This document shows, one piece after another, positions 6,128 through 25,636 of a DNA stretch of 64,000 bases. Both the position numbers and the translations under genes were made by a program. Below the pieces are notes generated by a model that worked only from the letters and a program-made list of their open reading frames with translations, was not told where the DNA came from and did no database searches. How positions within the stretch are numbered: position 1 is the first letter of the stretch; each line of letters begins with the position of its first letter. Source of the stretch: Roseibacillus persicicus (GTDB lineage Bacteria; Verrucomicrobiota; Verrucomicrobiia; Verrucomicrobiales; Akkermansiaceae); contig NZ_BMXI01000007.1 of NCBI RefSeq assembly GCF_014651675.1, positions 62,001-126,000 on the forward strand, given 5' to 3'.

Positions 6128-9100
6128 TTATTCGTAGACTTTCAGCCGGATAAAGAGCTTACCATTGGCCTCTTCGCCCGGAGTCAGAATGACGGGAGTG
6201 GCGGACTCGCTTGTTAAAATTGCGAAGGGAGGATCGCTCCATGTGATGAGGTCCGTGGAGAGAAGGATTTCGTAGGACACTCCAGGTCGGATATTGTTGA
6301 AGTCGTAGACCGCACCAGCTTCGTCATAGCTCAGGGAGGGAAGCCCTGATGGGTCCTGCTGAAGGGGGTTCATGCCTAGGGCAAACTCCAGGAAGTTCAC
6401 GACGAGGTCGCCGTCGGGGTCGCCTTCGAAGCTCTGGTCATCGCTCGGGCCCCAGAGAATTTCGTTCTTCCAGAGATAGTAGCCAGTAGGCTCTCCTTCG
6501 ACCGTGATGCTCACGTTGGCGAGGTTCGAGGTCAGGCTTCCCGTGGATTCAGTGGCCTCGTAGGCGAACGAGTCGGTGCCCGCAAAACCCGCCTCTGGTG
6601 TATAGGTGAATGAACCATCGGGAAGGATGCTCAATGAACCATGGGCTGGGGGTGTCACCAAGTTGGTCGCGAGAGTGTCCAAGTTGAGATCGAAATCATT
6701 GGCGAGGACTCCACTTGGAGGAACTGTCAGGACGGAATCTCGCGCGACGGAGTAGGCATCGGAATTCGCTGTAGGAGCCCAAGCAGAGAGGCCAGGGAGG
6801 TCCCACGAGTCGGTACGGAAGGGGGCGGCGGGGAGGTCGCTGCTGTTTATTAGATTCACAGTATCGGCGAGATATGGAGCCCAAGCGTAACGCACAGCCA
6901 CGGGGTTGGGTACCGAGTCGGAGCGAATCAGGACTGAGTTCCCACTAACCGAGGAAGATGTTGTCGGGTAGAAGACTTGGTCTGACCCTGCGATTTCGAA
7001 AGCGGCTGGTCCAACTCTGCCACCAGTCCCCAGGCCGTCAGCATTTGTGAAGTTGATGGTAACGATATTGCCGTCGACAGACATTGAGTCATAGGTCGGT
7101 CCATGCGCTTCGATGGCTTCGCCGAGGGCATACTTTCTCGCAAGGAGAGCCAAGCGGGCGCCAATCGGTTCCTTGTCGGTGGGGTGAATGTTGTTCAGGA
7201 GCCCGGTATCGATGGAGACTGAATAGAAGGCGTTTTCCAACTCGTCTAGGGTATCCCCTTGAACCTCCCGGAACCAAGGCCATTGCTCCTGTCTGAAGGA
7301 AGGAAGTTGGACGCCGAGAAATGGAATGCTCCCTTGGTCGAATCGCTCGCGGTATTCCTTGACCAGTCGAGGGAAGGTTTCCCGATATTGCGCAATATTG
7401 TTAATCTCCCCGGCATTCGCTTCACCTTGATACCAGATGAAGCCTGAGATCCCAAAGTTCACCAGGGGGTGAATCATCTGATTGTAAAGTATGTTGGGCC
7501 GGGTGCGGATGAAGATGTCGGCATCATTATTACCTCTTGTCCAACCAGATGATAAAATCCCGTTGATCGCATCTTCGTTGGAAGAATAGCCCAAGTTTGT
7601 TGCCCGGGTAGCGACCGGTGTCCCCGCATTATATTCGCTCAAGCTCTGGTAAAGTCCGAGCATGCCCTCGAAGTGAGGAAGCTCCTCTGCCTGTTCGAGA
7701 GGAAGCCAGCCCTCAATGGAGCTGCTGCCATAGGCTGCCCAAATGATTCCCACCGGAGCATCAGTGGCTGCATGAAGCTGGCTTGCAAAGACTGAGCCGA
7801 TAGCCGTCCAGCTGGAGGCTGTGCTATTGGCCAGCCAGGCCGAGTCTTGAAAATCTGCCTCTGTTAGAGAAGCGTCCTGAGTGGCCTTCAGACAACGGAT
7901 TTCGTCGTTGCCAGCGATTTCATTAATGTAGGTAGTCTTCCAGTCCGCCATTTGGTTGAGGGTATAGACCATGTTGGATTGCCCGAAGCAGAGCCACACA
8001 TCACCGTAGAGAATGTCCGAGATGGTTTCGCTGTCCGAACCGTTGGTAACCGTCAAGCTGAAGGGACCGCCTGCAGGGTGAGCGGGGAGCTCGACCACCC
8101 AGTCTCCCTGTCCGTCCACCGTGCCAGTGACAGTGGAGCTATCCACGGAGACCGAAACCGATGTAAGTGGTTCTCCTTTTCCCCAAACTTTGACGGCTTT
8201 GTCTCTTTGCAGAATCATCCGGTCTTGGAAGGGGGAACCAAGTTGTAGTGGCGGTTCAACCAGAATGCTCGCCGTTGGTGCGGGATTGCTGGTGTTGTAA
8301 TTGCGAGGTTGAACGCTTGCATCCGCGTAGGAGTAAACCGAGATAAAGTATTCGCCACCCGGCACATTGATTGAGATGGGAACTCCTGGATAGAGACCGC
8401 TATGAGCCACATATCCGCCGCCTACGGAATAGCCGCTTCCGAAGTCAAGGTCGGCAGTGTAGTTCGTGCCATCGATTGGCAAACCTGGTGCAGAACCCTC
8501 GCTTATGATCACGAGAGCCCCGCTTGAGCTCACTTCATCAGTCCAAGAGACTGAAATCGTGGAAGAGTCTGCTGCCTCGATCGTCAGGTTGCTCGCGGGG
8601 TTGGGTTCGGTGAGAAAAGATGCTGCCGGTGAGTAGACGGTTCCTTCGGTCGAATTGGTTGCATATGCCGCGAAGTTATAGACCGTGGCTGGAGACAAGC
8701 CTGAGCGGGAATCGCTTACTGTGGTCGGGGTGTTGCTCACTGCGCCCAGGGTGGTGGGTAGATCTCCCAGGGAACCGCCATTCTCCCACAAGCTGGTGCC
8801 ATGTTCCGTGATCCCACTGCCTCCGGAAATGGTGGCTCCCAGGGTTGCGGCAGCTGTAGTGACGTTGGACACGACCGGGTTGTCGAGGAAGAGAACATTG
8901 CCAGCGCTTGCGGGAGTTCCCTGGATGAAATAGTTCATTCCACGACTGGAGTTCGAGTGACCTGAGGTCGTTATCGAGAGCCGCCCTCCGGAATTTCCTT
9001 CCAGATGCTGGAGGCGATCGGGACTGGTTCCGCTTGAGGGATCGTAGGTGAGGAAGAAACCAAAGTCAGAGTTTTCATTAACCAAAAGGGGAGTGGATAG

Positions 9101-9619
9101 CTCTAAAGTGATGAACTGATTGTCCCCGATGAGTCCATCGAGCGTAAAAACTTCGGTGTAGAGGGGAGTGACTGAGGTTCCTTTGTAAAAGGTGCTATCA
9201 GTAGCGAGATGGCCTTCTCCGCTTGTCCATTGAGCCGAGGTTCCCTCGAAGATTCTCAGAGTTAGTGAGTCGTTTGCAAAGGTCGCGGCGACGTCTTTTT
9301 GAAAAGTAATGGCAGAGATCTCGAAAGCCGTGCCCGTTCCTTCTCCCAAGCTGAATAGCTGACCTCTCGCATGGTTTGCGTTACCGGTAATGGGGGCGGG
9401 CGCAGTGTTGGTGAGAGGGAAGAGCGAGGTGTTGATCAGTCCTCCACTCACGGAGTCTAAGATTTCGCTATTGGGAGCCGAGCCGGATATGATGACATCC
9501 GCTGCCGCAGGAGTGAAAGGTGCTGATAGAGCGAGTATCATCGCGAGGACCTGAAAATGGGGGGCAGAGCTTAGGATGTCCTTTAGGTCTATCAGTTTGT
9601 TTGGGAGAGTGGGATTCAT
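6128..9619 (-). CDS. Large secreted SGNH esterase, sialate O-acetylesterase-like, with Ig-like domains
   Basis: A multidomain extracellular carbohydrate esterase of about 1163 residues. The frame is open to 9865, but ATG at 9619 puts a hydrophobic export segment ending at AAA-DV near residue 40, so I prefer it. Order: an N-terminal beta domain (about 40-235), one or two fibronectin/Ig-like modules, a SGNH hydrolase core, a cadherin/VCBS-like Ig module (about 950-1035), and a verrucomicrobial C-terminal beta module. In the core, GQSNM carries the candidate nucleophile Ser548. The GxIWYQGEAN block and His812 in NNIHPTDK complete the family pattern of sialate O-acetylesterases, which remove acetyl groups from sugars. 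The N-terminal domain is closely similar to the short PEP-CTERM protein at 12466-13233. No PEP-CTERM tail is seen here. Substrate is inferred only from family. Confidence 0.88.
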   Translation of the reverse strand: MNPTLPNKLIDLKDILSSAPHFQVLAMILALSAPFTPAAADVIISGSAPNSEILDSVSGGLINTSLFPLTNTAPAPITGNANHARGQLFSLGEGTGTAFEISAITFQKDVAATFANDSLTLRIFEGTSAQWTSGEGHLATDSTFYKGTSVTPLYTEVFTLDGLIGDNQFITLELSTPLLVNENSDFGFFLTYDPSSGTSPDRLQHLEGNSGGRLSITTSGHSNSSRGMNYFIQGTPASAGNVLFLDNPVVSNVTTAAATLGATISGGSGITEHGTSLWENGGSLGDLPTTLGAVSNTPTTVSDSRSGLSPATVYNFAAYATNSTEGTVYSPAASFLTEPNPASNLTIEAADSSTISVSWTDEVSSSGALVIISEGSAPGLPIDGTNYTADLDFGSGYSVGGGYVAHSGLYPGVPISINVPGGEYFISVYSYADASVQPRNYNTSNPAPTASILVEPPLQLGSPFQDRMILQRDKAVKVWGKGEPLTSVSVSVDSSTVTGTVDGQGDWVVELPAHPAGGPFSLTVTNGSDSETISDILYGDVWLCFGQSNMVYTLNQMADWKTTYINEIAGNDEIRCLKATQDASLTEADFQDSAWLANSTASSWTAIGSVFASQLHAATDAPVGIIWAAYGSSSIEGWLPLEQAEELPHFEGMLGLYQSLSEYNAGTPVATRATNLGYSSNEDAINGILSSGWTRGNNDADIFIRTRPNILYNQMIHPLVNFGISGFIWYQGEANAGEINNIAQYRETFPRLVKEYRERFDQGSIPFLGVQLPSFRQEQWPWFREVQGDTLDELENAFYSVSIDTGLLNNIHPTDKEPIGARLALLARKYALGEAIEAHGPTYDSMSVDGNIVTINFTNADGLGTGGRVGPAAFEIAGSDQVFYPTTSSSVSGNSVLIRSDSVPNPVAVRYAWAPYLADTVNLINSSDLPAAPFRTDSWDLPGLSAWAPTANSDAYSVARDSVLTVPPSGVLANDFDLNLDTLATNLVTPPAHGSLSILPDGSFTYTPEAGFAGTDSFAYEATESTGSLTSNLANVSITVEGEPTGYYLWKNEILWGPSDDQSFEGDPDGDLVVNFLEFALGMNPLQQDPSGLPSLSYDEAGAVYDFNNIRPGVSYEILLSTDLITWSDPPFAILTSESATPVILTPGEEANGKLFIRLKVYE

Positions 9620-9850
9620 GCAGGATTGAATTTTGGAACGAGCGAACGGGATGAGGTTGTTCGCAATTGGAGTGGAAAGGGGGAAGAAGTTAAGTAGGGA
9701 AGACCACTTGTCCAAAAATTTTGGATTGGGTGGGAAGCAATGAGCGGGCAGCCAGGGTGTCCGCAAGCGGTTGGGGAGGAGTCGAGTGGGATAAAGGGGA
9801 AAGGAGGCAACTCCTCGGGAATTGGACGGAGCGGCCTTCGCTATGAATTC

Positions 9851-9882
9851 AAGCGCCTTTCCCATGAGCGGGAAAGGCGCTT
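9851..9882 (-). terminator. Strong hairpin, possible terminator of the LamG gene
   Basis: A perfect 13-bp inverted repeat (9851-9863 with 9870-9882) with a 6-base loop lies between the esterase-like and LamG genes. No T run follows on either strand, so it may be a processing or stabilising hairpin, or a weak terminator. Confidence 0.5.
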
Positions 9883-9935: not shown

Positions 9936-12125
9936 TCAATTAATACTCTCAACCCGATAATATTCGGCGAGATTGCCAATTCCAGGGACGGTGGCAGAAC
10001 CTGTGCCGTCAGGTGCGGTGAAAATCGTGACGTTTGTTGGTTCAAAAGTAACGAGATCTTCAGAAAAATAGATTTCATACTCGGTCTCGGGTGAAGCCAT
10101 AATTTCAATCGTGAAGTCGATTCCCAAGGCTCCAGGATCAGCGGACCAGTCTGTGATCTCAATCGGCCCCGGAGGGCTGTCGACGATGACAGTCACAAAT
10201 TTGGTAAAGGGACCGCCAGGGCCAGCAACTTTCAACTCGTAGGTCGTGGTGCTTGCCGGGCTCAACGTCACGCTGGTTTCAGTCATGGTGGTTGTTTCAG
10301 TCCCGTCGTCTAGAGAAACCCCCGTCGCGGAATCGCCAACTTTCCAGCTGAGCGTCACAGACTCGCCAAGAGTGATGGTCTCTGCATCAGCGTTGAAACC
10401 AAGTAGTGGGTCAGCTCCTGCGATAAATGCTGTCGCATGAGTTTCAATTTGTGTGGGCGTGAGTGCTTCTTCAAAGACTGCCGTTTCGTCCAGCCAGTCC
10501 AGCCAGGAAGGGTCTCCAAGAATCTGAGTCGCTCCAATCACCCAGTTGCCTACATTTGGTCCAACAGTCCCTACGGTGACGGGAGTGCCGTAGAGTTCTC
10601 CATCGATATAGATGGCCGCTTCGCCGCCTCCATTGACCTCATCCGCAGTAAAGACGTAATGGACGAGACAGCTGGTGTCGCTGGGGAAGGCATCAATCTC
10701 CGTCAAGTTGTCGAGAGTTCCATCGATGAAGGTTCTGAACCTTTCGTGCTTGCCAAAGATACTTGCTCCGCTTCCTGTTCCATTGGTCATGGAAAGAAGG
10801 TTTCTCGTGTTCGCATTGGGAACAGTTCCCGATACATTGAGAACGGAGACAAAGGAGAAGCTCGCGCTCATCTCGGAGGTCGCAGGGGAGAGAATGTATC
10901 TCGCGCCTGACGAAGGGCTGAAGTCCGCTGCATTCTGCATTCCGCCGGGAGCCGGGCTGGTTCCGAAGGTCAAGCTTTCGGAAAAGTCGTTGGTGTGGAA
11001 ACCATTTCCCGAGGAGTCCCGCAGGAAGGTCGTGCCAGTCTCTTCTTCATAACGGTAGTAGAACAATGGAGAGTCTGCCTTGATGGCCAGGCTGAAGGCG
11101 TTGTCGGCGGCTTCCTCTGCGGGGTCGATCACGGTGACCTCGGTGCTCTCGCTCAATGGCGCGGGAATCCCGGAACGAGATGCGGTAACCGTGTAAGTGC
11201 TCAAATCCATCGGAGGAGCTTCGGTGAAGACCACGATTCCGTCGTTGTCAGTGTCCAACGCCAACAAATCCACCGCAGAGTTGGCAGGGGTATCCAATGT
11301 CGCAGTGGTAGCTGATGCATCGAAGGTAATGTTAAAGTCCACGGGGACGCTGAGGTCGTAGACTGCAGCGGCAGTGGTGATCGTGGGAGCATCAAACTGG
11401 GTGCTATTGGTGGTCAGGGTGACGCTCTGAATCACGTTGTCTTGTGACCCTTGGGTTCTTGCTTTGAAGAAGTAGGTCTGCGTCAGATCGATAACAGTCA
11501 TTCCCGAACCAGAGATGGCACCGTAGGTATAGGTATAGCTTCCGTCTGGTCCAACATCGAGCACGAGAGTCTGAGCTGAGCCCGTCGCGAAGGTGATGGC
11601 ATTGAGCAAGGACGCCTCGCCAGACACCGCATCCAGATCCCACTCAATGAGACCTTCGTCGGCGGATCCATTCCTAAGGCCGAGGCTGAAGCCAATGCCG
11701 TCAGAGAGAGGGGTTTCTCCCGATGTGGCGAAGAGGTTGTTCTTTGTATCCAATTCGTCGGAGACCATCCCGAAGCTGAAGTGATTGGACGGATAGGGGT
11801 TGCCTGGAAGATTCGACGCCATGTCGAATGTCACTTCCAAGGTGAAGCCGTTACTCACGTTGAAAGAGTTCTCGCTTCGGAAAGTCGTGATTTGGCCGCC
11901 GGAAGTGGCAACGCCGGAGGAGAGACCCTCGTTGTCATCGTCATCATCATTCCAAGCAAAAGAACCGGAGGCATTGTTAAAGGTTTCGACGATTCCGCCT
12001 CCACCGGTTCCGTTGTTGGTAGTCAATCCGTCTTCGTCGAAGGAGTCTTCGTAGACAACCTGGCCAGAAGCAGGTCCAATGATGCCGAGCATCATAAGCA
12101 ACAGTTTATTTGATTTAGTTTTCAT
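9936..12125 (-). CDS. Secreted LamG/concanavalin-like lectin-domain protein
   Basis: A 729-residue exported protein with a signal peptide (MKTKSNKLLLMMLGIIGPASG). Residues about 20-245 form a beta-rich segment typical of extracellular lectin-like folds. About 345-580 is a LamG-like domain (FYYRYEEETGTTFLRDSSGNG through the IYIDGELYG and LDWLDETAVFEEALT phrases), a jelly-roll that usually binds glycans. About 585-665 is an Ig-like module (ITLGESVTLSWKV...STTTYELKV). The last about 65 residues are the C-terminal beta module common in verrucomicrobial secreted proteins (YEIYFSEDLVTFEPT...EYYRVESIN). No catalytic motif is visible, so binding or structure is more likely than hydrolysis. It lies between the esterase-like gene and the PEP-CTERM gene on the same strand, with about 315-340 bases on each side, so it may be transcribed separately. 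Confidence 0.85.
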   Translation of the reverse strand: MKTKSNKLLLMMLGIIGPASGQVVYEDSFDEDGLTTNNGTGGGGIVETFNNASGSFAWNDDDDDNEGLSSGVATSGGQITTFRSENSFNVSNGFTLEVTFDMASNLPGNPYPSNHFSFGMVSDELDTKNNLFATSGETPLSDGIGFSLGLRNGSADEGLIEWDLDAVSGEASLLNAITFATGSAQTLVLDVGPDGSYTYTYGAISGSGMTVIDLTQTYFFKARTQGSQDNVIQSVTLTTNSTQFDAPTITTAAAVYDLSVPVDFNITFDASATTATLDTPANSAVDLLALDTDNDGIVVFTEAPPMDLSTYTVTASRSGIPAPLSESTEVTVIDPAEEAADNAFSLAIKADSPLFYYRYEEETGTTFLRDSSGNGFHTNDFSESLTFGTSPAPGGMQNAADFSPSSGARYILSPATSEMSASFSFVSVLNVSGTVPNANTRNLLSMTNGTGSGASIFGKHERFRTFIDGTLDNLTEIDAFPSDTSCLVHYVFTADEVNGGGEAAIYIDGELYGTPVTVGTVGPNVGNWVIGATQILGDPSWLDWLDETAVFEEALTPTQIETHATAFIAGADPLLGFNADAETITLGESVTLSWKVGDSATGVSLDDGTETTTMTETSVTLSPASTTTYELKVAGPGGPFTKFVTVIVDSPPGPIEITDWSADPGALGIDFTIEIMASPETEYEIYFSEDLVTFEPTNVTIFTAPDGTGSATVPGIGNLAEYYRVESIN

Positions 12126-12465: not shown

Positions 12466-13233
12466 CTAGCGTCGACGGCGGGCAAAGGCGAAACCTCCAA
12501 GAGCCAGGAGAGCGAGTGAACTTGGCTCAGGGATTGCGGTTCCAGTGATGTAGAAGTCCATCCCTCGCGTTCCCACTCCTCCATGTGCTGTAGTCGTGAT
12601 GGAGAATCGTTGTCCACCCACGTTCTGGTTCTCCGAATACCCAAAGCGATCGGGGTTAGTGCCTAGAGAAGGGTCATAGGTCAGAAAGAACCCAAAGTCG
12701 CTGCTTTCGTTAACAAGGATTGGAGTGTTGAGGACGAAAGTAACAAACGAATCGTTTGAAATGAGCCCGTCAACGGTGAACGCCTCGGAATAAAGAGGAG
12801 TGACGGTTGTCCCTTCATAGAAGGAAGAGCTAGCAACGGTGTGACCCGTTCCAGTGGTGAACTCCGTTTCGGTACCTTCGAAAACGAACAAGGTGATGGT
12901 ATCGGAACTGAAAGTCTGATTGCCACTCTTAACAATGCTAATTGCTGTGATTTCGAAGCCGGTGCCAGTTCCATCAGGGAGTGAGAAGAATTCGCCTCGA
13001 GCGTGATTGTTATTTCCCACGATGGGAGAGGGCGCGGTTCCGGTGAGAGGGAACAAGTTCGAATTGATGTTGCCGTTGGGGTTGAAGGAGGTGATGATGT
13101 CCGTGCTAGGCTCGGTTGCCGATACAACAACAGCTCCCGAAGCCGATCCCAGCATGGCGGCCGTAGCCAATGTTGTTGAGGCGAGTAGCCATGAATTGTC
13201 AGGTTTCTTGTGTAGGTTTTTCAGTATTTTCAT
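12466..13233 (-). CDS. PEP-CTERM sorting-domain surface protein (block A)
   Basis: A 255-residue exported protein with an N-terminal signal segment (about residues 14-33, ending SASGA). It has one beta domain (about 35-230) and a classical PEP-CTERM tail: IPEPSS, a hydrophobic stretch and a terminal Arg cluster (ARRRR). In known systems this tail is recognised by an exosortase that removes it during attachment or secretion; no exosortase gene is in this window. The beta domain shares long identical phrases with the N-terminus of the esterase-like protein at 6128-9619, for example NHARG, the SDFGFFLTYDPS block and the RG-M-F/Y-I-x-GT end. It is divergent from the regulator at 13407, with 173 bases between them holding a palindrome at 13314. 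Function beyond surface display is unknown. Confidence 0.92.
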   Translation of the reverse strand: MKILKNLHKKPDNSWLLASTTLATAAMLGSASGAVVVSATEPSTDIITSFNPNGNINSNLFPLTGTAPSPIVGNNNHARGEFFSLPDGTGTGFEITAISIVKSGNQTFSSDTITLFVFEGTETEFTTGTGHTVASSSFYEGTTVTPLYSEAFTVDGLISNDSFVTFVLNTPILVNESSDFGFFLTYDPSLGTNPDRFGYSENQNVGGQRFSITTTAHGGVGTRGMDFYITGTAIPEPSSLALLALGGFAFARRRR

Positions 13234-13406: not shown

Positions 13407-14501
13407 GTGAAGCGAATTCGTATTCTCTCTGCAGTAGAACAGGTTGCGGCACATCTGAGGACTCAGGTTGCCCAGCGAACTTTCGGAAATTCGTTGCCTG
13501 GAGTGAACTGGTTGGCTGCTGAGCTGGGCGTCAATCACAAGACGGTGGTAGCCGCCTTGAAGTTGTTGGAGGACGAAGGGCTGATCCTGAATCAGGGGCC
13601 CAGACGTAAACGCATTGTGGCTGGAATCACGAGTGACGGCCCGCGTCCGATGCAAATTTGCTTCCTTCTTTACGAGCAGTCCGACCGGGAAACGTCCTTT
13701 TTTGTAGAGATGCAGCATGCGCTCATGGATGCGGGGCACACCGTTGTCTACAGCGCCAAGAGTCTGACGGAAATGAAGATGAATGTGACGACCGTGGAGC
13801 GCTTGGTCAGGAAGTCAGAGGTCGATGCCTGGGTGATCGTTGCGGGATCGCGGGAGATTTTGGAATTCTTTGCGGAGCATTCGGCTCCGTCCTTTGCTCT
13901 TTTTGGTCGGCGCCATAGCTTGGCAATTGCGTCGGCGGGACCCAATACAGAAGCCGCATTTGCGGATGCAATCAATCACCTCATCGCGAATGGTCATCGA
14001 CGGATCGTGAAGATTTGCCGAAGCGAGCGACGTAAGCCGAGCCCGGGATGGAGTGAGAGGTCTTTCCTCGAAATTTTGCGGAAAAACCGGATTCCGGTCG
14101 GTGATTATAACCTGCCGGACTGGGAAGAGTCCGCAAACGGTCTGCGAGATTTGCTGAAATCTTTATTCAACGTCACTCCTCCGACGGCCATCATCGTGGA
14201 CGAGGCGATGCATTTCATTGCGATATTGCAATATCTGGGGTCGATCGGCCTACGGGTTCCAGAGGATATTTCGATGTTTTGCGCAGAGTTCGAGCCCAAC
14301 TTCCGCTGGTGCAACCCGTCGGTGGCACACCTGCACTGGGATTCCAATCAAGGCGTCAGAAGAATTCTTCGATGGGCTTCCCGGGTGAGTCAAGGGAAGG
14401 TCGATACCCGGCAGACGATGATTCCTGCCAAGTTCATCTCCGGCGGGACCGTCGGCCCCGCCCCTGGTTTCATTCCTCCCGAGGCGAGGGTTCCCCGTTG
14501 A
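13407..14501 (+). CDS. GntR-type transcriptional regulator with LacI-like sugar-binding domain
   Basis: A 364-residue regulator. Residues about 5-70 are a GntR-type winged helix-turn-helix (LPGVNWLAAELGVNHKTVVAAL followed by KLLEDEGLI). The rest is a periplasmic-binding-protein-like domain of the LacI/XylR kind, with a ligand pocket expected between two lobes (GHRRIVKICRSERR; AIIVDEAMHFIAILQYLG; VPEDISMFCAE). Regulators of this fold sense a small sugar or related ligand. The start is GTG. It diverges from the block A surface genes, so it probably controls them, and it is followed by the beta-helix protein on its own strand. It is paralogous to the regulator at 20725-21807, which holds the matching position in block B. 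The target and ligand are inferred from position only. Confidence 0.85.
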   Translation: MKRIRILSAVEQVAAHLRTQVAQRTFGNSLPGVNWLAAELGVNHKTVVAALKLLEDEGLILNQGPRRKRIVAGITSDGPRPMQICFLLYEQSDRETSFFVEMQHALMDAGHTVVYSAKSLTEMKMNVTTVERLVRKSEVDAWVIVAGSREILEFFAEHSAPSFALFGRRHSLAIASAGPNTEAAFADAINHLIANGHRRIVKICRSERRKPSPGWSERSFLEILRKNRIPVGDYNLPDWEESANGLRDLLKSLFNVTPPTAIIVDEAMHFIAILQYLGSIGLRVPEDISMFCAEFEPNFRWCNPSVAHLHWDSNQGVRRILRWASRVSQGKVDTRQTMIPAKFISGGTVGPAPGFIPPEARVPR

Positions 14502-16605: not shown

Positions 16606-16632
16606 AGGCCGCTCTGCCAAGCAGAGCGGCCT
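16606..16632 (-). terminator. Intrinsic terminator of the beta-strand repeat gene
   Basis: A perfect 12-bp stem (16606-16617 with 16621-16632) with a 3-base loop lies 38 bases past the leftward stop at 16671. On the minus strand it is followed by TTTTCA. Confidence 0.85.
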
Positions 16633-16670: not shown

Positions 16671-19600
16671 CTAGTTCGACTCGGGGAAGGTGTTGCCAGC
16701 GGGAACGATGGCGAAGAAGGCTTTGGTTGCACCGATGTCGTCGACTACAAAGGGTTGCTCGGAAGTGATTCCCTCTGCGATAGGTGCTCCCCAGAGGTTC
16801 AAGTCGCTGGAGGTATAGATATCAACCGGTCCGCTTGAGCTGAAGGTGAGGGTTGCCTTTCGACCAGCATTGGTTCCGGGTTCGGTTGTGAGGGTCACCT
16901 CTTCGATAGAGGTCGTTCCTCCAACCCCGACGCCAGTGATGATGGAATCGTCATCAGTCGTGGGGGTGACGGGGAGGCTGGACCCCGCAAAGTTGAGAGT
17001 TCCTCCTCCCTTGACCGTAATAGCCGCCGTCGCCGTTTCAAAGGCACCTCCAGTCAGGTCGCCGGCAAAAGAGGCGGTCGAACCGGTTGGCACATAAAAG
17101 GTCAAGGCTCCCCCCGACCATGTGACGTTGTTTGCAATGGTGACGATGTCAGAATTCGAGGCTGAACCAGCGATGAAGCCAAACTCAGCATCGGTGGTAA
17201 CTTCTACCAGCGCACCCATGGCGGGGATTGCGGAGGAACCGTCCAAAAGCAGGCAACCCCCGTCAACAAAAGTGGGGCCGGTGTAAATGTTGACTCCGCT
17301 CAAAACCATGGTCCCGGCCCGTGCTTTCCCAACTCCTCCCACTGCTTCTGCTGCATCTTCGAGCTGTGCACTGACAATGAGGTCGGGCCCGTTGTCCGAG
17401 CTTACGTCTTCAACGTCGAAGTAATAGGTGTCACTCAGTCCAATTCCTGATGTGAACGGTCCAATCTGGGAGAGTCCGCTCCCTTCAACGAGGACATCTC
17501 CATTGAGCTGGGCGTTCTCGTCATCGAAGTTAAGTGGACTAGTGGCAGTCCAAGTCGAGCCATTCCGCAAGGTTAGGTTCCCGATATGAGAATGCGTCCC
17601 GCCGGATTGGAGTAGGGTGGAATTGTCGATGGTGATGCGACCATCGATTACCTCTCGTACGATGGTGTTGGTCGCTGCGATTTCCAGGGTGGAACCTCCG
17701 GATACCGTCACGTTAGAAGAGTTAGGGATCGGTGTGGTAAAGGCCAGGCCCAATGTCGCGACGGACCCATTGCTAATCAGGGTCTCACCAGTGAAGAAGT
17801 TGGAACTATTCAGCGAAACTGAGCCGCCACCATTGATCGTTAGCCCGCCAGAACCCGAGATAGGATTTCCAGTGACAATATAGTCGAATCCCGCGGTGTT
17901 GCTGAATAGGGTTTGAAGTGGGGATACGGTATCGAGGATCGTGATAGGCAATTCTCCCGGACTCGAAAAGGCAACGTCGCTGAGATGGGCTTCGAAGTTG
18001 TTGTAGAATTGGCTGGGTGAAGAAGCATTTAACCAATCTGTCTCCACTCCCAGGCTCCACTCTCCAGCACCGGAAGCATTACTATAGGTCAGGGTAGTAT
18101 TGCTTTCGGCAGCTAGGTCAATTGTAACGGAAATGACTCCGGTGGTAGGGTCGTGGTTCCAAGTTTGAACTGCGGGTGAAAGACCATAGGCGGTCAAATT
18201 CGTTCCGACCGTGCCGGTCACTGAATCCGCCGTCATCACCTCGTAGACACCGTTGCTGGAAATCGCGGGGACAAAGTTCACGTAGTTCTCAGTCCCTGTT
18301 AGAATGAGTTCGTCTACCGCAAGTGGTGTTCCGAGATCATCAATGGTCAGGGTGCTGGCTCCATCAGCGGGTGAGGAAGCAAGGGTCAGGCTGCCAATCG
18401 TTTCCTCATTGCCTGCCAATTCGAGAGTGGAACCAGTAATGGAGACTGTGGAGGAATTGGGAAGATTTTCCATGGGGAGAGCGACATCGGAAGCCAATCG
18501 CAGCGTGGCTCCATCCGTAACCGTCCAACTCTGGGAGGCCGCGGTATTGGCTCCGCCCAGTTCGAAAGTTCCTTCGCTAATTGTCGTGGTGCCGGTGTAG
18601 GAGAGGATTTCGGTTGCTCCGGTGGTGCTGGATGTTGCTCTGAGGAGTCCGGGACCGGTCTTGACCAGACTTCCAGTTCCCACAATTGGATTTCCGAAGA
18701 GATACAGCGTGCCATCACATTCGATCGTGCTGGTGGTTGCGTCGGCTAGTGTGATCGGAACGGTATTTGCAGGCCACAGATAGAGAATTTGGTCCTCCAC
18801 ATCTAAAGTTCCACCGTTCAAGTTGATTGGCACACTCGAGTCTTGTCCGGCATTTCCGCTCACAAAGCGGAAGGTGCCTCCCTCGGCGATATTGACTTCA
18901 GAGGCATTGCGGAAGGCCGTGCTGTTTCCTGCAAGCTCGAGCACTCCTTCATTAATCTGAATCACACCGTTGACCGGGAGGGAGTTGTCAGGGACTTGCA
19001 GAGTGGCCACCCCTGAGCCGTTCTTTGTGAGACCGTTTAACGAACTGAATTTGCCCGCAAGAGTGTAGTCGAGGAGGCTGTTGTCGAAGGTGACGGAGGA
19101 GGGGAAGGTTGTGGTCGGAATCTCCACAACTCCGGAAAAAGCAGGGTCCGGGCTGTCGTCGAACAACACATTGTCACTTCCCTGGAAGGTGTTGTCAGAA
19201 GAGTTCCAATTAGAATCGGTTCCGTTCGTTTCCCAAATGTCGGAGTCAGTCGCTGTCCAGGTGATGTTTTCAAACCGGGTTCCGGTTGCGGTGCCATTGA
19301 CAATGAGTCCGCCGTTGGCGGCAGCGAGATCGGCCCAGCGGTCGGGACCCGCATTGTCGACGAAGTAGATCCGAAAGGTGATAGCCTCGGTGACCGATCC
19401 CAAGCTCGAGATGTCGAAGAGAAAGTTGGCCGAACTCGTATTGGTTTGCGTCTGGCTTGCGAGCTCAGTCGCAAAGTTGTCCACGCTAGTGCGCACGATA
19501 CCGGTATAGCCGTCGTCGTCGTTCATTCCTCCATACGAGTTCAGCTGATAGCTAATCGACTCAAAGGTGATCTCCCCATTCTGCGGAGGGGTGATGGTGA

Positions 19601-19889
19601 ACTCGGTATAGCCTCCCACCTCAGCATCATATTCCCCCGCAGGGCTGAACCTGTTTGAAATCTCGCCAGGCCATACTGAACCTGCATTGGTAACGGTGGC
19701 TTGATTGATTCGTGCAATTCGGCTTCCTGCAACACCCAAGGTTGCCAAGCTGGGGGCGGGTGTTTGCGAGCTCCGGAAGAACTCGCTATCCGTTGCTTCT
19801 CCCGGGATGGGAAGCCATTGCACAAGAACATCTCCTTGGGTGATTCCGCTTGTTAGCAGAACGAGTGACAGACTTTTCTTCAGTTTCAT
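16671..19889 (-). CDS. Large autotransporter-type beta-strand repeat surface protein
   Basis: A 1072-residue exported protein with a signal peptide (MKLKKSLSLVLLTSGITQG). Residues about 20-200 are a globular beta domain closely similar to the short PEP-CTERM protein just upstream at 19908-20600. The rest is an array of imperfect repeats of the autotransporter-associated beta-strand kind (for example GLTKNGSGVATLQVPDNS, INEGVLELAGNS, VLSGVNIYTGPTFVDGG), expected to form a long solenoid. The end is a short Ser-Gly-rich C-terminal beta module (VDIYTSSDLNLWGAP) without a PEP-CTERM tail and without an outer-membrane barrel. Such proteins are common in Verrucomicrobiota and are thought to be surface or matrix proteins; no enzyme motif is visible. 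It follows the short protein by 18 bases, so the two are surely cotranscribed. Confidence 0.88.
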   Translation of the reverse strand: MKLKKSLSLVLLTSGITQGDVLVQWLPIPGEATDSEFFRSSQTPAPSLATLGVAGSRIARINQATVTNAGSVWPGEISNRFSPAGEYDAEVGGYTEFTITPPQNGEITFESISYQLNSYGGMNDDDGYTGIVRTSVDNFATELASQTQTNTSSANFLFDISSLGSVTEAITFRIYFVDNAGPDRWADLAAANGGLIVNGTATGTRFENITWTATDSDIWETNGTDSNWNSSDNTFQGSDNVLFDDSPDPAFSGVVEIPTTTFPSSVTFDNSLLDYTLAGKFSSLNGLTKNGSGVATLQVPDNSLPVNGVIQINEGVLELAGNSTAFRNASEVNIAEGGTFRFVSGNAGQDSSVPINLNGGTLDVEDQILYLWPANTVPITLADATTSTIECDGTLYLFGNPIVGTGSLVKTGPGLLRATSSTTGATEILSYTGTTTISEGTFELGGANTAASQSWTVTDGATLRLASDVALPMENLPNSSTVSITGSTLELAGNEETIGSLTLASSPADGASTLTIDDLGTPLAVDELILTGTENYVNFVPAISSNGVYEVMTADSVTGTVGTNLTAYGLSPAVQTWNHDPTTGVISVTIDLAAESNTTLTYSNASGAGEWSLGVETDWLNASSPSQFYNNFEAHLSDVAFSSPGELPITILDTVSPLQTLFSNTAGFDYIVTGNPISGSGGLTINGGGSVSLNSSNFFTGETLISNGSVATLGLAFTTPIPNSSNVTVSGGSTLEIAATNTIVREVIDGRITIDNSTLLQSGGTHSHIGNLTLRNGSTWTATSPLNFDDENAQLNGDVLVEGSGLSQIGPFTSGIGLSDTYYFDVEDVSSDNGPDLIVSAQLEDAAEAVGGVGKARAGTMVLSGVNIYTGPTFVDGGCLLLDGSSAIPAMGALVEVTTDAEFGFIAGSASNSDIVTIANNVTWSGGALTFYVPTGSTASFAGDLTGGAFETATAAITVKGGGTLNFAGSSLPVTPTTDDDSIITGVGVGGTTSIEEVTLTTEPGTNAGRKATLTFSSSGPVDIYTSSDLNLWGAPIAEGITSEQPFVVDDIGATKAFFAIVPAGNTFPESN

Positions 19890-19907
19890 AGTGTTCTGGG
19901 AATAGGA

Positions 19908-20600
19908 TTATTTCCTGCGGCGAGAAAGCAAGGCGATGGAGCTAAACGAAAGAAGAAGAACGGCTGAAGGCTCGGGGATGCTGACGACATCACCCGAGAT
20001 GATGAGACCCGTGGTCGTGGATGTGTCACTGCCGTCCAGATCGAACCAGGCGTTCCCTCCAGCCTGAGCATTGTCGACCGCATAGATCCTGAAGGTTGTT
20101 GGGCTGTCGACTCCTTGTAGAGCGCTGATGTCGATTACGAAGGTGTCAGCAGAAGAGTCGGTAATGGTCTGGGAGCCGAGGTCGGTCGCAAATCCGTCAG
20201 TGCTGGTGCGCACGTATACCGTGTATCCATCCGCGTTGTTCATTCGTCCGTAGGTGTTGGTGCTATAGCTCAGGCTTTCGAGGTTGACCTGATAGCCGCT
20301 CGCAGGTGCGATTGCAAACTCGGTGTATTCGCTGGTGTCAAAGGACTGGGAGGCGAGTCCGGGATAGCGTATTCCAGCGTTCGTAAAGGAGTTTGCCGGG
20401 ACGCGAGCTAAGGTGGAGACAACCAGGTTGGCGGCTGCTTCCGAGGGGCTGGGAGTATCAGACCCTGAGTCGTAGCTCGTGCCCTCAGGGAGTGCAGTGC
20501 TGACCGGAGTCCATCGAGCGAGAGTTGCGCCCGAGAGGGTGTTGACGCTGAGAAACAGCAAGGTGGAAGAGTTGGCGAGAAGTCGATTTTTGGAATTCAT
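19908..20600 (-). CDS. PEP-CTERM sorting-domain surface protein (block B)
   Basis: About 230 residues, from ATG at 20600; a TTG start at 20612 is also in frame. The N-terminal hydrophobic segment ends near TLSGA. One beta domain follows, then the PEP-CTERM tail SIPEPSA, a hydrophobic run (VLLLSFSSIALL) and SRRRK. The tail predicts exosortase processing. The ectodomain closely matches the N-terminal domain of the large neighbour at 16671-19889: TEF-I-P, the ES-SY-N-YG-MN-DGYT block, VRTS-D-FAT, FRIY-VDNA and a GLI-x-G end. It is the first gene of the leftward unit and is divergent from the regulator at 20725. The shared domain suggests the two proteins recognise the same partner or assemble together. 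Confidence 0.92.
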   Translation of the reverse strand: MNSKNRLLANSSTLLFLSVNTLSGATLARWTPVSTALPEGTSYDSGSDTPSPSEAAANLVVSTLARVPANSFTNAGIRYPGLASQSFDTSEYTEFAIAPASGYQVNLESLSYSTNTYGRMNNADGYTVYVRTSTDGFATDLGSQTITDSSADTFVIDISALQGVDSPTTFRIYAVDNAQAGGNAWFDLDGSDTSTTTGLIISGDVVSIPEPSAVLLLSFSSIALLSRRRK

Positions 20601-20631
20601 GGATATTGGCAACTTACCGTTTGCAGCAATT

Positions 20632-20675
20632 AGAGGACCAGAGGGTGTCCTCTCGTGGTGAGTTGCTCTGGTCCT
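20632..20675. promoter_or_regulatory. Overlapping alternative inverted repeats between divergent genes
   Basis: Two inverted repeats share bases and cannot form together. AGAGGAC (20632-20638) pairs with GTCCTCT (20647-20653), and AGGACCAGAG (20634-20643) pairs perfectly with CTCTGGTCCT (20666-20675). They lie between the PEP-CTERM gene and the divergent regulator. They could be a two-site operator on DNA, or a switching leader in the leftward transcript. Confidence 0.5.
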
Positions 20676-20724
20676 TTTCTGGAACCAGTTGACATTTTGA
20701 AGGATTAGGCCTTGTTAGTAGGGA

Positions 20725-21807
20725 ATGAAGAAGGTCGGAGTGGAAAGACGGTATCTGGCGACGACTGCCGCCCGCCATCTTGCAAACTTGATTCAAGAGG
20801 GGGTGTATCTCGAGTCCCTGCCTGGCGAGCGACGGCTGGCCAAGGACCTGGGGGTGGGGAGGAATGCTTGCCGAAGTGCCTTGGAGGAGCTTGAAATCCA
20901 AGGCCTTATTTCGGAGGCCAAGCCAGGATGTCAGCGAAGAATTCTGGATCGTGCGCAAGAGAAGAAGTCAAAGACTTTGCTTCATCTCTACAGTGCCTAT
21001 TCCGAGAAACAAGAGGTCGAGCGACGGCTTTTTCAGCGAGAGGGAGAACTTTGGGAGCAGGCGATGGGACCTTGTCGTCATCAACGAGTAGACTTTCAAA
21101 AGACAAAAAATGCTCAACGGATTCTTGAAAAAATAGTGCAGCAAACAGAGGCCGACGCACTCTTTCTTTCCTCTCCAACCTCCCCATGGATACAGGGTGC
21201 CGATGAGCTGCAGCTTCCTGTTTTCTGCAGCGGAGGAGAGTTCTCGAAGAGTATCCCAAAGTTTCTAACAGGCGCTGCTCATGATTTCGTGAGTGAGGTC
21301 GAAAGGGCATTGAGTCGACTCAAGGCATTGGGTCACCGGAAGGTCTTGGTCACGGTTTCCAAGGAGCGGTCTTTTCTGGTTCAGTCCACGATCGAATCCT
21401 TTTGCCGGAAGCAGAATTACCAAGGTGACCGTCATATGCTCGAGTCCTGGTTTCCGGTCTTTGATGCTTCCGACAAAGAAAAGAATATGCAGATGTGGAA
21501 GGAGGCAATCTCTCGAAGCAAGCCTACAGCGGTGATCGTTCCAGGCTCGTCAATGTTGGTTTCGCTCTACATGTTCTGCTTTCGCGAGCAGGTCAGAATT
21601 CCGGAGGAACTCTCGGTGATTTGTTTGGAGCACAACGACTTGTTAAGTTGGATGTCCCCGATTCCTGTGACAATGCGCTATCCCGAAGAGCAAGCTTTGC
21701 GGATTTTTGTCAACTGGATGAACGGTGGCCTCGTTTCATCCGGTCTTCACTATCTGAGCTTGGAGCAAACTTCTGGAGGGGAGAGCGTCCGAGCCCTTGC
21801 TGAGTAG
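20725..21807 (+). CDS. GntR-type transcriptional regulator with LacI-like sugar-binding domain (second copy)
   Basis: A 360-residue regulator paralogous to the one at 13407. The N-terminal winged helix (residues about 10-75) carries LPGERRLAKDLGVGRNACRS followed by ALEELEIQGLI, the canonical GntR pattern. The C-terminal part is a LacI/XylR-like effector domain (SRLKALGHRKVLVTVSKERS; TAVIVPGSSMLVSLYMFCF; IPEELSVICLEHNDLLSWM). It is divergent from the block B surface genes and precedes the prepilin-like giant protein gene, separated by about 330 bases. Placement like that of the block A regulator suggests local control of the flanking surface genes; the effector is unknown. Confidence 0.85.
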   Translation: MKKVGVERRYLATTAARHLANLIQEGVYLESLPGERRLAKDLGVGRNACRSALEELEIQGLISEAKPGCQRRILDRAQEKKSKTLLHLYSAYSEKQEVERRLFQREGELWEQAMGPCRHQRVDFQKTKNAQRILEKIVQQTEADALFLSSPTSPWIQGADELQLPVFCSGGEFSKSIPKFLTGAAHDFVSEVERALSRLKALGHRKVLVTVSKERSFLVQSTIESFCRKQNYQGDRHMLESWFPVFDASDKEKNMQMWKEAISRSKPTAVIVPGSSMLVSLYMFCFREQVRIPEELSVICLEHNDLLSWMSPIPVTMRYPEEQALRIFVNWMNGGLVSSGLHYLSLEQTSGGESVRALAE

Positions 21808-22135
21808 TGGTGCTCTGAAGAATTGTCATTTTGGGATTCGCTGTCGGGGCCTGAAGTTGCTGGATTTGATCTTCCGTTTGAGTCACATCCCAAGTGACCC
21901 GGTAGGCTTCTCGAGCTGCGGATTATTTTTTGGGTTCTCCTGAGTTGTTCTGCTTAAGGGAGATCGATGTTTGAGTGTCGTAAACTCTCGAATTTATGTG
22001 TTTGGTTAAAAACTGGTACGTATCTTGCAGTCAATTGTTCTGCGATTGCTAGTGTCGGCTAGCTTCCGGAACAGAGGTTTCGAGAGTATCAATCAGGTCA
22101 GATACCTCCTTCTTCCTCTTTCACCAAATAATAAG
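21808..22135. other. Non-coding gap before the prepilin-like gene
   Basis: No supported gene. The frame of the downstream protein is open back to 22025, but that extension has no conserved look. It likely holds the promoter of the 22136 gene. Confidence 0.5.
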
Positions 22136-25100
22136 ATGAAAGGAAAACGTTTAAGTTTTCGGGCCGAAAAAGGGTTCTCCTTAGTAGCAGTAGTTAGCAT
22201 GATGGTCTTGCTGTCATTGTTGGCGTTGGGGCTTCTTGGGTTGAGTGCCATGGTGCTTCGAGGGCGGGAAGCCAACTCGGCCCAATTGGAGGCGCGGGCG
22301 AATGCTCGCTTGGCGCTACAGATGGCCATTGCCCAGTTGCAGCGAACGGCCGGACCCGATCAACGGGTTACCGCCTCTGCCGCTTTCGCAGGGAACGGTT
22401 ATCCGGAGCAGTGGACTGGCGTGTGGCGAACGGGGGAGGAAGTGGATGGATCGCTCATGCCCGCCGTTGGCTATGGTTCGGATTGGGGGACTACCAAGTC
22501 GTTCAAGGATAGAAGAGAGAGCGTGACCTCTTGGCGGAGCGATTGGTTTCTCGAACCTTTGGTCACAAATGTTTCGAATTCATCGCCTGAAGCGGTTTCG
22601 TCTCTGGCCTCGGCGACCGACTCGCTACCTGCTGTCGAGGTCCCGCTGTTAGGGATTGGGCAATCCGGTGCGCTTGGTTGGTGGACCGATGACCGTTCGC
22701 AACGCACCAGCGTGGCCCCGGGGCGAAATGCCGATAGCGTGGGCGAGGAAGCATTTGCGAGTGCGCCGCGGCACGATTCCGGAGCTCTCGTTGAAGAGAA
22801 GTGGGAGACCGATTTCTTTCGCGATAGTCATGAGCGGGAATTGACTGTTACTGATCAGAGTCTGGCTCTCGCGGCCAGCACCTCACCCCTGCCGGCCCAG
22901 TCACAGGCGGTGGCACGCTCCTACGGACTTTTCACCGACTCTGTTTTTGGTGGATTGAAAGGAGACCTGACTCGCTTTGTGGAATCGGAAGGGCAGGTTT
23001 TTGGCCGTGATGAGGAACTGGGGTTGGCGGGGATCGATGCCTCGGCGTCCATGTTATCTGAGAAATTTCATGAATCTTCGGGGCCGAAATGGCAGCGCCT
23101 ACGTTCCTGGTTTCAGTTATCCCGAACAGGTAGTTCCTCGGGGTTGACCTCGATGGAGGCTGAAAATACGCGAGTCGCTCGCAAGGCCTTTGGAGGGGAA
23201 GGCTATTCCGTGGATGCGATGGCTTCTCTGGAACAGCCTGTCCATCCGATGGTGGTCGATGCGGGGTTCCATTGGGATTTCACCCCGGAGGATGAGACGG
23301 GGAGTTCGTTCTATTGCCACATTTATCCGCGGGTGTCCTTGTGGAATCCATACAATACCCAGCTGACTAGCGAGCCGATGGTGATCCTGATGCCCAAGCA
23401 TATTGATAGCGGCGGGGGCTTGTCCGTGGAGGTGAGTTTGCGGGGGCAAGTTGAGATCATTCCAACGGTTGTGCGGGGTTGGGGAGAGCAGTTTCGAACT
23501 GCGGGTAGTCCGACAGAGCACTATTTCATGTTCACTATCGAGCCCACGACTTTCGAAGCGGGCGAATGTCTGGTGTTCACTCCAAAGGTAAATGCCCGGG
23601 TCGGGATGCAGCCCTACGACGATCGAGTCGTTTCGCGAAATATTCTAACCGCGAACCAACCGGTGGGCCCCGAAAATTTCACCCTGAGCCTGCAGTCTCG
23701 CAATAGCCTCTTGCAGCAGCGCTTGGCGAGGGGGGCGACCGTTACCCGGTATATTTCGACGCCTTGGGACAGTCAGAACTATCAGAATGCGCTGCACTGG
23801 AATCCCAAGCCCTTTCTCCTAAAGCAAGGGACGGCGGGTAACATGACCTCCCGCGATGTGATGACGCGGGAAAGTCACGCGACTTTACAACGGCTCTATG
23901 TGAATGATGGAGGTGCGGGGGAGGACTACTTTGCGGAATCAGGGAAGCGGGCGGGCTATATCCGCATGTATCCGGGGTGGAGCAACGATGCCGAGAACAA
24001 CGGATCCGAGTGGGGGACCTTTGCGAGCAACCCCAACCGTCATCCTCCCCGCCGGTGGCACTATCGCGTCCATCTCAGTTGGTTGGATGACATTGAGGAG
24101 TTGCGAGTCGTCGGGCGGATCAACAATCCGCAGCCTCCTTATGAAGCCGCAGTTATGGCCGATTGGAATCCGATCGCGTCGGTGGTGTGTCGCACGCCTT
24201 CGACCTACCTGCGCGAGCACTTCGATTTGCATGTGGGACCTTGGTATCGATGTAAGGCCGCCCACGATGCCCATGGTGGTTTGCAAAATTGGGGGGTCTT
24301 TATTGAAGGTAAGGCCAGAGGCTGTCCGAACGCGAACCCTCTCGACTTTGCCAGTGAATTGGCCTTTCCCGTGATCGACCTTCCGAGTCGGAACCTTCCT
24401 CTCCAATCGCTGGGGCAACTGAGGCATGCGCCACTTTCTCCTTGGCTTTGGCATCCGCTGCGAATCGTCGGAAACTCGCGTCCCTCGCTTCATGCGACTG
24501 CCGATGAGACTTCCTTACCCACCATTGCACAGACCCGCAATCCATGGACCCGGACGGTAGTTCAGACCGATGCGGTCTTCGATGATCTGGTGCAATCCGA
24601 TGATCATAAAGACGTGTTGCTCTACGATATTAGCCATGAGGTGAACCGGCGTCTCTGGGACTCCTACTTCGCCTCCTCATGGGAAGAGGACTTTGACGAG
24701 GAGTTGAACAAACTTCCGAACGCTCTTTATCGGCCGCACCCGACTCTTCGCGCGGATAAGGATTTGATGGAGACTGGCAGTGGGAGGCAGGCTCTTTCAT
24801 TCTGGCTACCGGCGTACCTGCTAGTGAATGAAGGAGCATTCAACGTGAACACTCTTTCAACGGAATCATGGCTAGCCTTCTTGAGTGGAATGAAGGATGT
24901 GAGCCGCCCTTCTTCCAACGGGCAGGAGATGGCGGCCAGTCATCCTTTTTCTCGCTTTCGTCAGCCTCTTGAAGAGAGTGGTTTTTGGGGTGGCGGGGTA
25001 GGCCTGGATGATTCCCAACTCTCCACGCTTTCCTCGGCTTTGGTGGAAGTGGTGAGAGAACGAGGTCCCTTTTTGGGAGTGTCGGATTTTGTCAACCGCC

Positions 25101-25636
25101 GTCTGAGTAAGGACGAGACTCAATCACGCGCCGGCGCTTTGGATGAGGCGATCCAAAGGGCTTCTCTCCGCTATGAGGAAGGGCGTGATTTTCTCAATAT
25201 GGCCACGGACCAAGATTCGGCAGTGCCACCGCGGCAACGATTGACGCAAGAGCACAACGCCGAGTGGCTGCTCGATGGGGCCCCAGGTATATTGGAACAA
25301 AGCGATATCCTCGAACCTCTGGGCGGGACCCTTTGTGCTAGAGGTGACACGTTTCGCATTCGCGCCACCGGGATTTCCAAGGATGAAAGTGGACGGATTC
25401 TCGCTCAGGTCTACTGCGAGGCCACCGTGGTGCGCAGCCCGGAGTATTTGTTGGCGGGCGACCTGACCGAGCCTGGTTCGTCCACCGAACCCAACTCCGC
25501 ATTGCTTCGACCCTATCTCGAAAACGAAAGCGACTCCACCTTGCAAGCGAATCCTGATATGCATCCGTTGAACCTAAAATATGGCCGACGTTTTGAAGTT
25601 CTTGATTTCAGGTGGCTAACTCCTTCCGAAATATAA
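22136..25636 (+). CDS. Prepilin-like giant protein resembling Verru_Chthon cassette protein A
   Basis: About 1166 residues from ATG at 22136. The N-terminus has a basic leader ending in Lys-Gly, followed by FSLVAVVSMMVLLSLLALGL, the pattern cleaved and N-methylated by prepilin peptidases. Position +5 is Ala, not the usual Glu, as in GspK-like minor pseudopilins. A helix of ANARLALQMAIAQLQRTAGP type follows, then a very large exported domain. This layout resembles the verrucomicrobial Verru_Chthon cassette protein A family, whose role is unknown; assignment is from memory of the family. Cassette proteins B, C and D are not nearby. A 240-residue secreted protein follows 3 bases after the stop. 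The long ectodomain is rich in Trp and Pro and lacks known enzyme motifs. Confidence 0.72.
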   Translation: MKGKRLSFRAEKGFSLVAVVSMMVLLSLLALGLLGLSAMVLRGREANSAQLEARANARLALQMAIAQLQRTAGPDQRVTASAAFAGNGYPEQWTGVWRTGEEVDGSLMPAVGYGSDWGTTKSFKDRRESVTSWRSDWFLEPLVTNVSNSSPEAVSSLASATDSLPAVEVPLLGIGQSGALGWWTDDRSQRTSVAPGRNADSVGEEAFASAPRHDSGALVEEKWETDFFRDSHERELTVTDQSLALAASTSPLPAQSQAVARSYGLFTDSVFGGLKGDLTRFVESEGQVFGRDEELGLAGIDASASMLSEKFHESSGPKWQRLRSWFQLSRTGSSSGLTSMEAENTRVARKAFGGEGYSVDAMASLEQPVHPMVVDAGFHWDFTPEDETGSSFYCHIYPRVSLWNPYNTQLTSEPMVILMPKHIDSGGGLSVEVSLRGQVEIIPTVVRGWGEQFRTAGSPTEHYFMFTIEPTTFEAGECLVFTPKVNARVGMQPYDDRVVSRNILTANQPVGPENFTLSLQSRNSLLQQRLARGATVTRYISTPWDSQNYQNALHWNPKPFLLKQGTAGNMTSRDVMTRESHATLQRLYVNDGGAGEDYFAESGKRAGYIRMYPGWSNDAENNGSEWGTFASNPNRHPPRRWHYRVHLSWLDDIEELRVVGRINNPQPPYEAAVMADWNPIASVVCRTPSTYLREHFDLHVGPWYRCKAAHDAHGGLQNWGVFIEGKARGCPNANPLDFASELAFPVIDLPSRNLPLQSLGQLRHAPLSPWLWHPLRIVGNSRPSLHATADETSLPTIAQTRNPWTRTVVQTDAVFDDLVQSDDHKDVLLYDISHEVNRRLWDSYFASSWEEDFDEELNKLPNALYRPHPTLRADKDLMETGSGRQALSFWLPAYLLVNEGAFNVNTLSTESWLAFLSGMKDVSRPSSNGQEMAASHPFSRFRQPLEESGFWGGGVGLDDSQLSTLSSALVEVVRERGPFLGVSDFVNRRLSKDETQSRAGALDEAIQRASLRYEEGRDFLNMATDQDSAVPPRQRLTQEHNAEWLLDGAPGILEQSDILEPLGGTLCARGDTFRIRATGISKDESGRILAQVYCEATVVRSPEYLLAGDLTEPGSSTEPNSALLRPYLENESDSTLQANPDMHPLNLKYGRRFEVLDFRWLTPSEI

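Follow-up and report, generated by a model that had tools for sequence, protein, structure and literature searches.

A small PEP-CTERM protein and a large untagged neighbour with one ectodomain in Roseibacillus persicicus: a lineage-restricted pairing

Why would a bacterium encode one extracellular domain twice in a row, on a small protein with a PEP-CTERM sorting tail and on a large protein without it? The question is raised by two adjacent genes, S234 and L1072, in a 64,000-nucleotide stretch of the Roseibacillus persicicus genome (NCBI RefSeq assembly GCF_014651675.1, contig NZ_BMXI01000007.1, positions 62,001 to 126,000 of the forward strand), which we call the window. An earlier note on this DNA, made from the letters alone, had proposed that the N-terminus of L1072 and the adjoining PEP-CTERM protein share a domain (block B), that a second domain-matched pair with an unrelated domain lies nearby (block A), and that such pairs are a rule and not chance. 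We find that the pairing rule is real and restricted to a lineage, and that pairs for particular domains recur in two other genera.

The S234 and L1072 pair

The shared domain, called domain B, is clearly present in both proteins: a BLASTP alignment of S234 residues 28-207 with L1072 residues 19-199 gives 40% identity over 204 amino acids (E 2e-37). Because the match spans residues 28-207 of S234, domain B is approximately the whole of the mature small protein. Both genes are on the minus strand, with L1072 18 bp downstream of S234. The features of the pair are:

19908..20612, minus strand: S234, small PEP-CTERM protein made of one domain B and a sorting tail (234 amino acids from TTG)
19992..20531, minus strand: domain B of S234, residues 28-207 (BLASTP; jelly-roll model)
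19911..19982, minus strand: PEP-CTERM sorting tail of S234, residues 211-234 (TIGR02595; helix 215-232 in the model)
16671..19889, minus strand: L1072, large untagged partner of 1072 amino acids, made of domain B, beta-strand repeats and a C-terminal domain called CT
19293..19835, minus strand: domain B of L1072, residues 19-199 (BLASTP)
17250..17318, minus strand: TIGR02601/PATR beta-strand repeat of L1072, residues 858-880
16671..16937, minus strand: CT domain closing L1072 (start approximate)
16606..16632, minus strand: terminator hairpin 3' of L1072, 12 pairs (9 G-C)

The ATG at 20600 is a likelier start for S234 (230 amino acids; also the end point used in the earlier note) than the TTG at 20612 (234 amino acids). 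S234 has a signal-like N-terminus, a PEP motif, a hydrophobic helix and a basic cluster at its end, which is the architecture of the PEP-CTERM/exosortase (EpsH) sorting system (PMC1569441), and the genome has two exosortase genes (PF09721 matches over the cut-off). The tail scored 18.4 bits against TIGR02595, over the cut-off of 16, and 23.1 bits in a genome-wide search; Pfam PF07589 fell just under its cut-off. Pfam and NCBIfam scans found no PEP-CTERM tail on L1072. Its repeat passed the TIGR02601 cut-off and fell just under that of Pfam PATR. An NCBIfam scan of domain B matched no choice-of-anchor model, and the only copies of domain B in the whole 5.28-Mb genome are those of S234 and L1072.

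The second pair, block A, was confirmed as well:

12466..13233, minus strand: S255, small PEP-CTERM protein
6128..9865, minus strand: L1245, large partner made of domain A, a SASA esterase and CT
13407..14501, plus strand: head-to-head regulator of block A, GntR/Peripla_BP_3

S255 and L1245 are 54% identical over 211 amino acids (BLASTP), with one further gene between them. As had been claimed, the domains of the two blocks are unrelated: BLAST found no similarity between them, and the match of S234 to S255 is the 23-residue tail alone. An origin of both blocks from a single duplication was rejected on this ground.

Pairing across the genome and in relatives

A genome-wide search found 81 PEP-CTERM matches. 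The test sample joined the window to 67 stretches, each no longer than 20 kb, that surround almost all of these matches; in total it held 1.36 Mb with 1056 open reading frames (ORFs). Seven further tails were added by pattern, and the final tagged set was 81 genes of 150-400 amino acids. A partner was defined as an untagged homologue at least 1.5-fold longer and within three genes. A partner was found for 10 of the 81 small PEP-CTERM genes and for 1 of 451 size-matched untagged genes from the sampled stretches (Fisher p 4e-8); as the ORFs were called mechanically, a real gene finder might change single counts slightly. When the controls were limited to untagged genes with a signal-like N-terminus, 0 of 193 had a longer neighbouring homologue (p 3e-6). 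The earlier note had suggested scoring neighbours against shuffled gene orders, and this comparison was strongly positive: of the 18 homologous pairs with one tagged and one untagged member, 13 are no more than three genes apart, while 2000 shuffles gave a mean of 0.09 and a maximum of 3. A phmmer comparison (E<=1e-3) linked the two members in 19 of 305 neighbouring couples, against 15 of 50077 distant ones. Only two neighbouring couples were tagged on both sides. Plain tandem duplication would not favour tagged genes this way.

When weaker matches are included, 12 tagged genes have a partner, with 13 partner links. In each of the 12 matched couples the genes share one strand, and immediate neighbours are 11-107 bp apart. 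The domains of the 12 tagged genes have no similarity to one another. Within couples the identity runs from 27 to 73%, and the match covers 0.83-1.10 of the small protein in 11 of the 12. The partner bodies include two sulfatases and one SASA esterase, and the rest are PATR, TSP3, lectin (legume-lectin domains among them) or unassigned, which agrees with the expectation of a small sorted protein beside a large repeat or enzyme protein.

Most partners also have a second common domain, the C-terminal CT, which escaped the earlier note. Ten of the 13 partner links lead to a protein that ends in CT; the matched partners without it are at 562710, 444274 and 579756. CT is a beta domain of 70-90 residues at the end of the large partners, with the loose signature Y-x4-S-x-DL-x-x-W ... 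F-[YVF]-R-[VL], in short SxDLxxW...FYRV. Copies in the window are at 6128-6430, 9936-10202, 16671-16937 and 63263-63580. The signature occurs in 48 proteins of the sampled regions, 38 of which have it at the extreme C-terminus, and none of the 48 also has a PEP-CTERM tail. Domain B is found both with PEP-CTERM and with CT. No Pfam or NCBIfam model covers the CT region in the CT proteins scanned. The CT model (pLDDT 66.7) is Ig/FN3-like, with structural matches of Z up to 6.0. CT resembles the C-terminal domains of type IX secretion (T9SS), which are also small Ig-like beta domains at the end of many large secreted proteins. However, no NCBIfam T9SS tail matched the CT proteins scanned, and the T9SS domain 5hfs (Z 4.9) was no better a match than FN3 domains. 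From its position and distribution, CT may be a sorting or secretion module. A profile search found it in 52 of 58 relatives, mostly on large ORFs, with up to 68 copies per genome and 54 here. If CT is a sorting signal, some 50 large secreted proteins of this genome would be marked by it.

The one relative tested in the same way was G036, a single-contig genome of the same family, from which 60 stretches and one more were sampled. None of its 48 small tagged genes had a longer untagged neighbouring partner. The claim of a rule thus stood in R. persicicus and failed in G036, so the rule is lineage-restricted. The earlier note had named a lack of enrichment in relatives as the outcome that would count against it, and G036 shows that outcome, whereas the pairs that recur in two other genera do not. 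The G036 sample had 15 tagged proteins of at least 400 amino acids and the sample here had 3. In G036 (L142-L201) the tails are often on proteins of more than 400 amino acids, while nearly all tagged proteins here have 165-375.

In G011 and G064, which belong to one genus different from that of the window, the order is a PEP-CTERM protein with domain B, a CotH protein ending in CT, and a protein made of two B domains and CT. Two tandem copies of B are found in the partners of G011, G064 and G113. The C4 trio of this genome is present in the same order in G031 (ORFs of 347, 1032 and 1414 amino acids), where the match to its small member reaches residue 317 of 319 and takes in the tail. With identities down to about 30-55%, the gene order of the C4 trio and of the B cluster is conserved in other genera; the C8 pair was found in this genome alone. 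A search of genome contigs with a single protein found nothing; an alignment-based search found two loci, which are again those on the G064 and G011 contigs. In a tree of B domains the L1072 copy falls with the tagged ones, apart from the untagged ones of G011, G064 and G113, but the AU test does not reject one common origin for all untagged copies (p 0.21). The 1045-1051-amino-acid neighbour in G011 and G064 is a CotH/LTD protein. A fusion of B with this neighbour as the source of L1072 was considered and ruled out, as they have no similarity.

What the pairs may do

Domain B is modelled as a beta jelly roll (pLDDT 73.5). Its best structural matches are largely carbohydrate-binding modules (CBMs), among them that of a pectate lyase (Z 8.8, the highest) and CBM27, CBM36 and CBM6, along with unrelated jelly rolls which are not CBMs. 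A chain of the surface glycan-binding protein SGBP-B (7kwc) is among the Foldseek matches with E 1.6e-3. The model suggests that domain B resembles a sugar-binding, CBM-like module.

Two features upstream of S234 may bear on its regulation:

20725..21807, plus strand: head-to-head regulator of block B, GntR helix-turn-helix plus Peripla_BP_3
20634..20675, no strand assigned: inverted repeat AGGACCAGAG/CTCTGGTCCT, a tentative operator, in the gap that separates S234 from the regulator gene

Opposite a third matched couple (C1:91929) stands one more Peripla_BP_3 protein, so that 3 of the 11 Peripla_BP_3 proteins in the genome are head-to-head with matched pairs. The tagged B genes of G012 (two loci) and G097 likewise face Peripla_BP_3 regulators. 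The count of the candidate operator motif across the window is not above chance, so its status stays tentative. A TGGTCC core is common to the inverted repeats at window 20632-20677 and L129:10628-10648, from two genera; the repeats sit in divergent promoter regions of tagged B genes and may be an operator of the regulator.

We are led to suspect that each pair is an inducible glycan-targeting operon which issues one binding domain in two forms, a small sorted one and a large effector one, and we consider this reading about evenly balanced between right and wrong. A one-component regulator whose effector domain is of the sugar type, the one at 20725 in block B, would turn on the co-transcribed pair. 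The first product would be a single jelly-roll domain that binds the substrate and carries a PEP-CTERM tail; after export and processing by either of the two exosortases, it would be shown on the cell surface or set free close to it. The second would join this binding domain to an effector body, such as a sulfatase, a SASA esterase, beta-strand repeats or a lectin, and would leave by another route and usually end in CT. As both forms have the domain in common, the small sorted form and the effector would be sent to the same ligand.

What favours this reading is partly observed: the domain shared within pairs, the operon-like layout of closely spaced genes on one strand, the enrichment, the terminator after L1072, the two exosortase genes, the position of the Peripla_BP_3 regulators here and in G012 and G097, and the sulfatase, SASA and lectin partners. 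The CBM-like model and the gene row in G047 described below also favour it. We infer the glycan ligand, the induction, the surface display and the use of CT as an alternative sorting module. Several points weigh against it. The structural match of domain B is middling in both Z and pLDDT. L1072 has no recognised enzyme domain, only 3 of the 12 matched couples face a Peripla_BP_3 regulator, and G036 has no pairs. Retention at the surface is also put in doubt by ZepA, a cyanobacterial PEP-CTERM protein found in the exoproteome (PMC10957091). A bolder version, which we find rather doubtful, is a scheme of two addresses. Each private domain would be made in a short exosortase-sorted form and in a long form whose CT is an undescribed sorting or secretion module of Verrucomicrobiales; some sensors would carry the domain too, giving a specificity code that links sensing, capture and attack.

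The pairs could also come from neutral local duplication and domain shuffling, with tags that differ by accident, a common strand that reflects local origin, and no functional pairing. The domain families all differ and several are private to this genome, such as that of the C8 pair; the identities within couples fit repeated independent events, and the lack of pairs in G036 fits too. But this origin would not explain why untagged genes of the same size, with or without signal-like N-termini, are almost never paired, why couples tagged on both sides are so few, or why gene order in the C4 trio and in the B cluster is conserved across genera, and we think it unlikely. Less likely still is homotypic docking, in which the shared domain self-associates and the sorted small protein anchors the large one through a private coupling code for each pair. 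This would suit a small protein that is little more than the shared domain and a tail, an unrelated domain in each pair, and partners without a tag. However, the fold is nearer to CBMs than to known docking modules, and the tandem B domains in G011, G064 and G113 fit multivalent ligand binding equally well.

The least probable of the alternatives, to which we give little weight, is a broader habit in which PEP-CTERM genes and CT-ended genes are co-operonic within one envelope programme and share domains only secondarily, by recombination between neighbours. An immediate co-directional CT neighbour is indeed found for 18 of the 81 small PEP-CTERM genes and 8 of 446 untagged controls (p 2e-10), and 10 of 20 PEP-CT couples have no detectable common domain, for example 62184-63233 and the CT gene at 63263. 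This habit leaves unexplained the match over nearly the whole mature small protein and the matched partners that lack CT.

In the polysaccharide utilisation loci of Bacteroidota, a small surface glycan-binding protein is encoded together with enzymes of degradation and a regulator of the sugar type. The pairs resemble these loci in having a co-encoded small binder, and 7kwc is such a protein, but here binder and effector carry one identical domain type. No SusC/D pair came to light here, though none was searched for. Choice-of-anchor domains (NCBIfam, e.g. NF038128) are similar in that one ectodomain has various C-terminal endings; here both endings are on neighbouring genes of one operon, and this is repeated with unrelated domains. 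CBMs sit on RsgI anti-sigma sensors in the sigma-I biomass sensing of Clostridium thermocellum (PMC4711584). The locus in G047 is alike, with the ectodomain of a secreted enzyme also on a FecR-type protein beside an extracytoplasmic function (ECF) sigma factor, whereas the window pair faces a GntR/Peripla_BP_3 regulator. Each of these elements is already known: the sorting of PEP-CTERM proteins, choice-of-anchor domains, sensors that bear CBMs, and glycan binders of the cell surface. The literature searched, mostly outside subscription journals, held no case in which tagged and untagged proteins are matched within an operon again and again with unrelated domains, and the PEP-CTERM/exosortase paper (Haft 2006, PMC1569441), as far as it was searched, describes no neighbour with the same ectodomain minus the tag, as is present here. 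The same paper describes PEP-CTERM proteins as a very diverse group that shows little homology with proteins already known, so that dozens per genome have no assigned role. Matched neighbours with sulfatase, esterase or lectin parts offer a guilt-by-association route to PEP-CTERM ligands.

Neighbouring and related loci

In G047 (L137:7298-12804) an ECF sigma factor, a FecR-type protein, a PEP-CTERM protein and a SASA esterase lie in a row. After the Sigma70_r2/r4 gene comes one for a protein of 494 amino acids, which matches FecR weakly and is B-like in its C-terminal region. A distant B-like domain is present on the last three genes (58-83% identity), with 83% over 210 amino acids between the PEP-CTERM and SASA proteins. 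The row may be a sensor-binder-enzyme set.

At the end of the window, a PEP-CTERM gene (62184-63233) lies 29 bp from a CT-ended beta-strand-repeat gene (63263-63955) which leaves the window. It was considered as a third matched pair and rejected, as no common domain was found.

Proteins of 1136-1203 amino acids adjoin B-domain loci in three genomes (window 22025-25636, L130:10877-14395 and L137:3792-7202) and have look-alike C-termini, GRRFEVL.. and GRSFRIS... The one in the window has a pilin-like hydrophobic N-terminal region and no Pfam or NCBIfam match. At L066:7840-11316 (G000:C1:334839-338315), four related small proteins of 300, 235, 273 and 308 amino acids lie together with alternating PEP-CTERM and CT endings.

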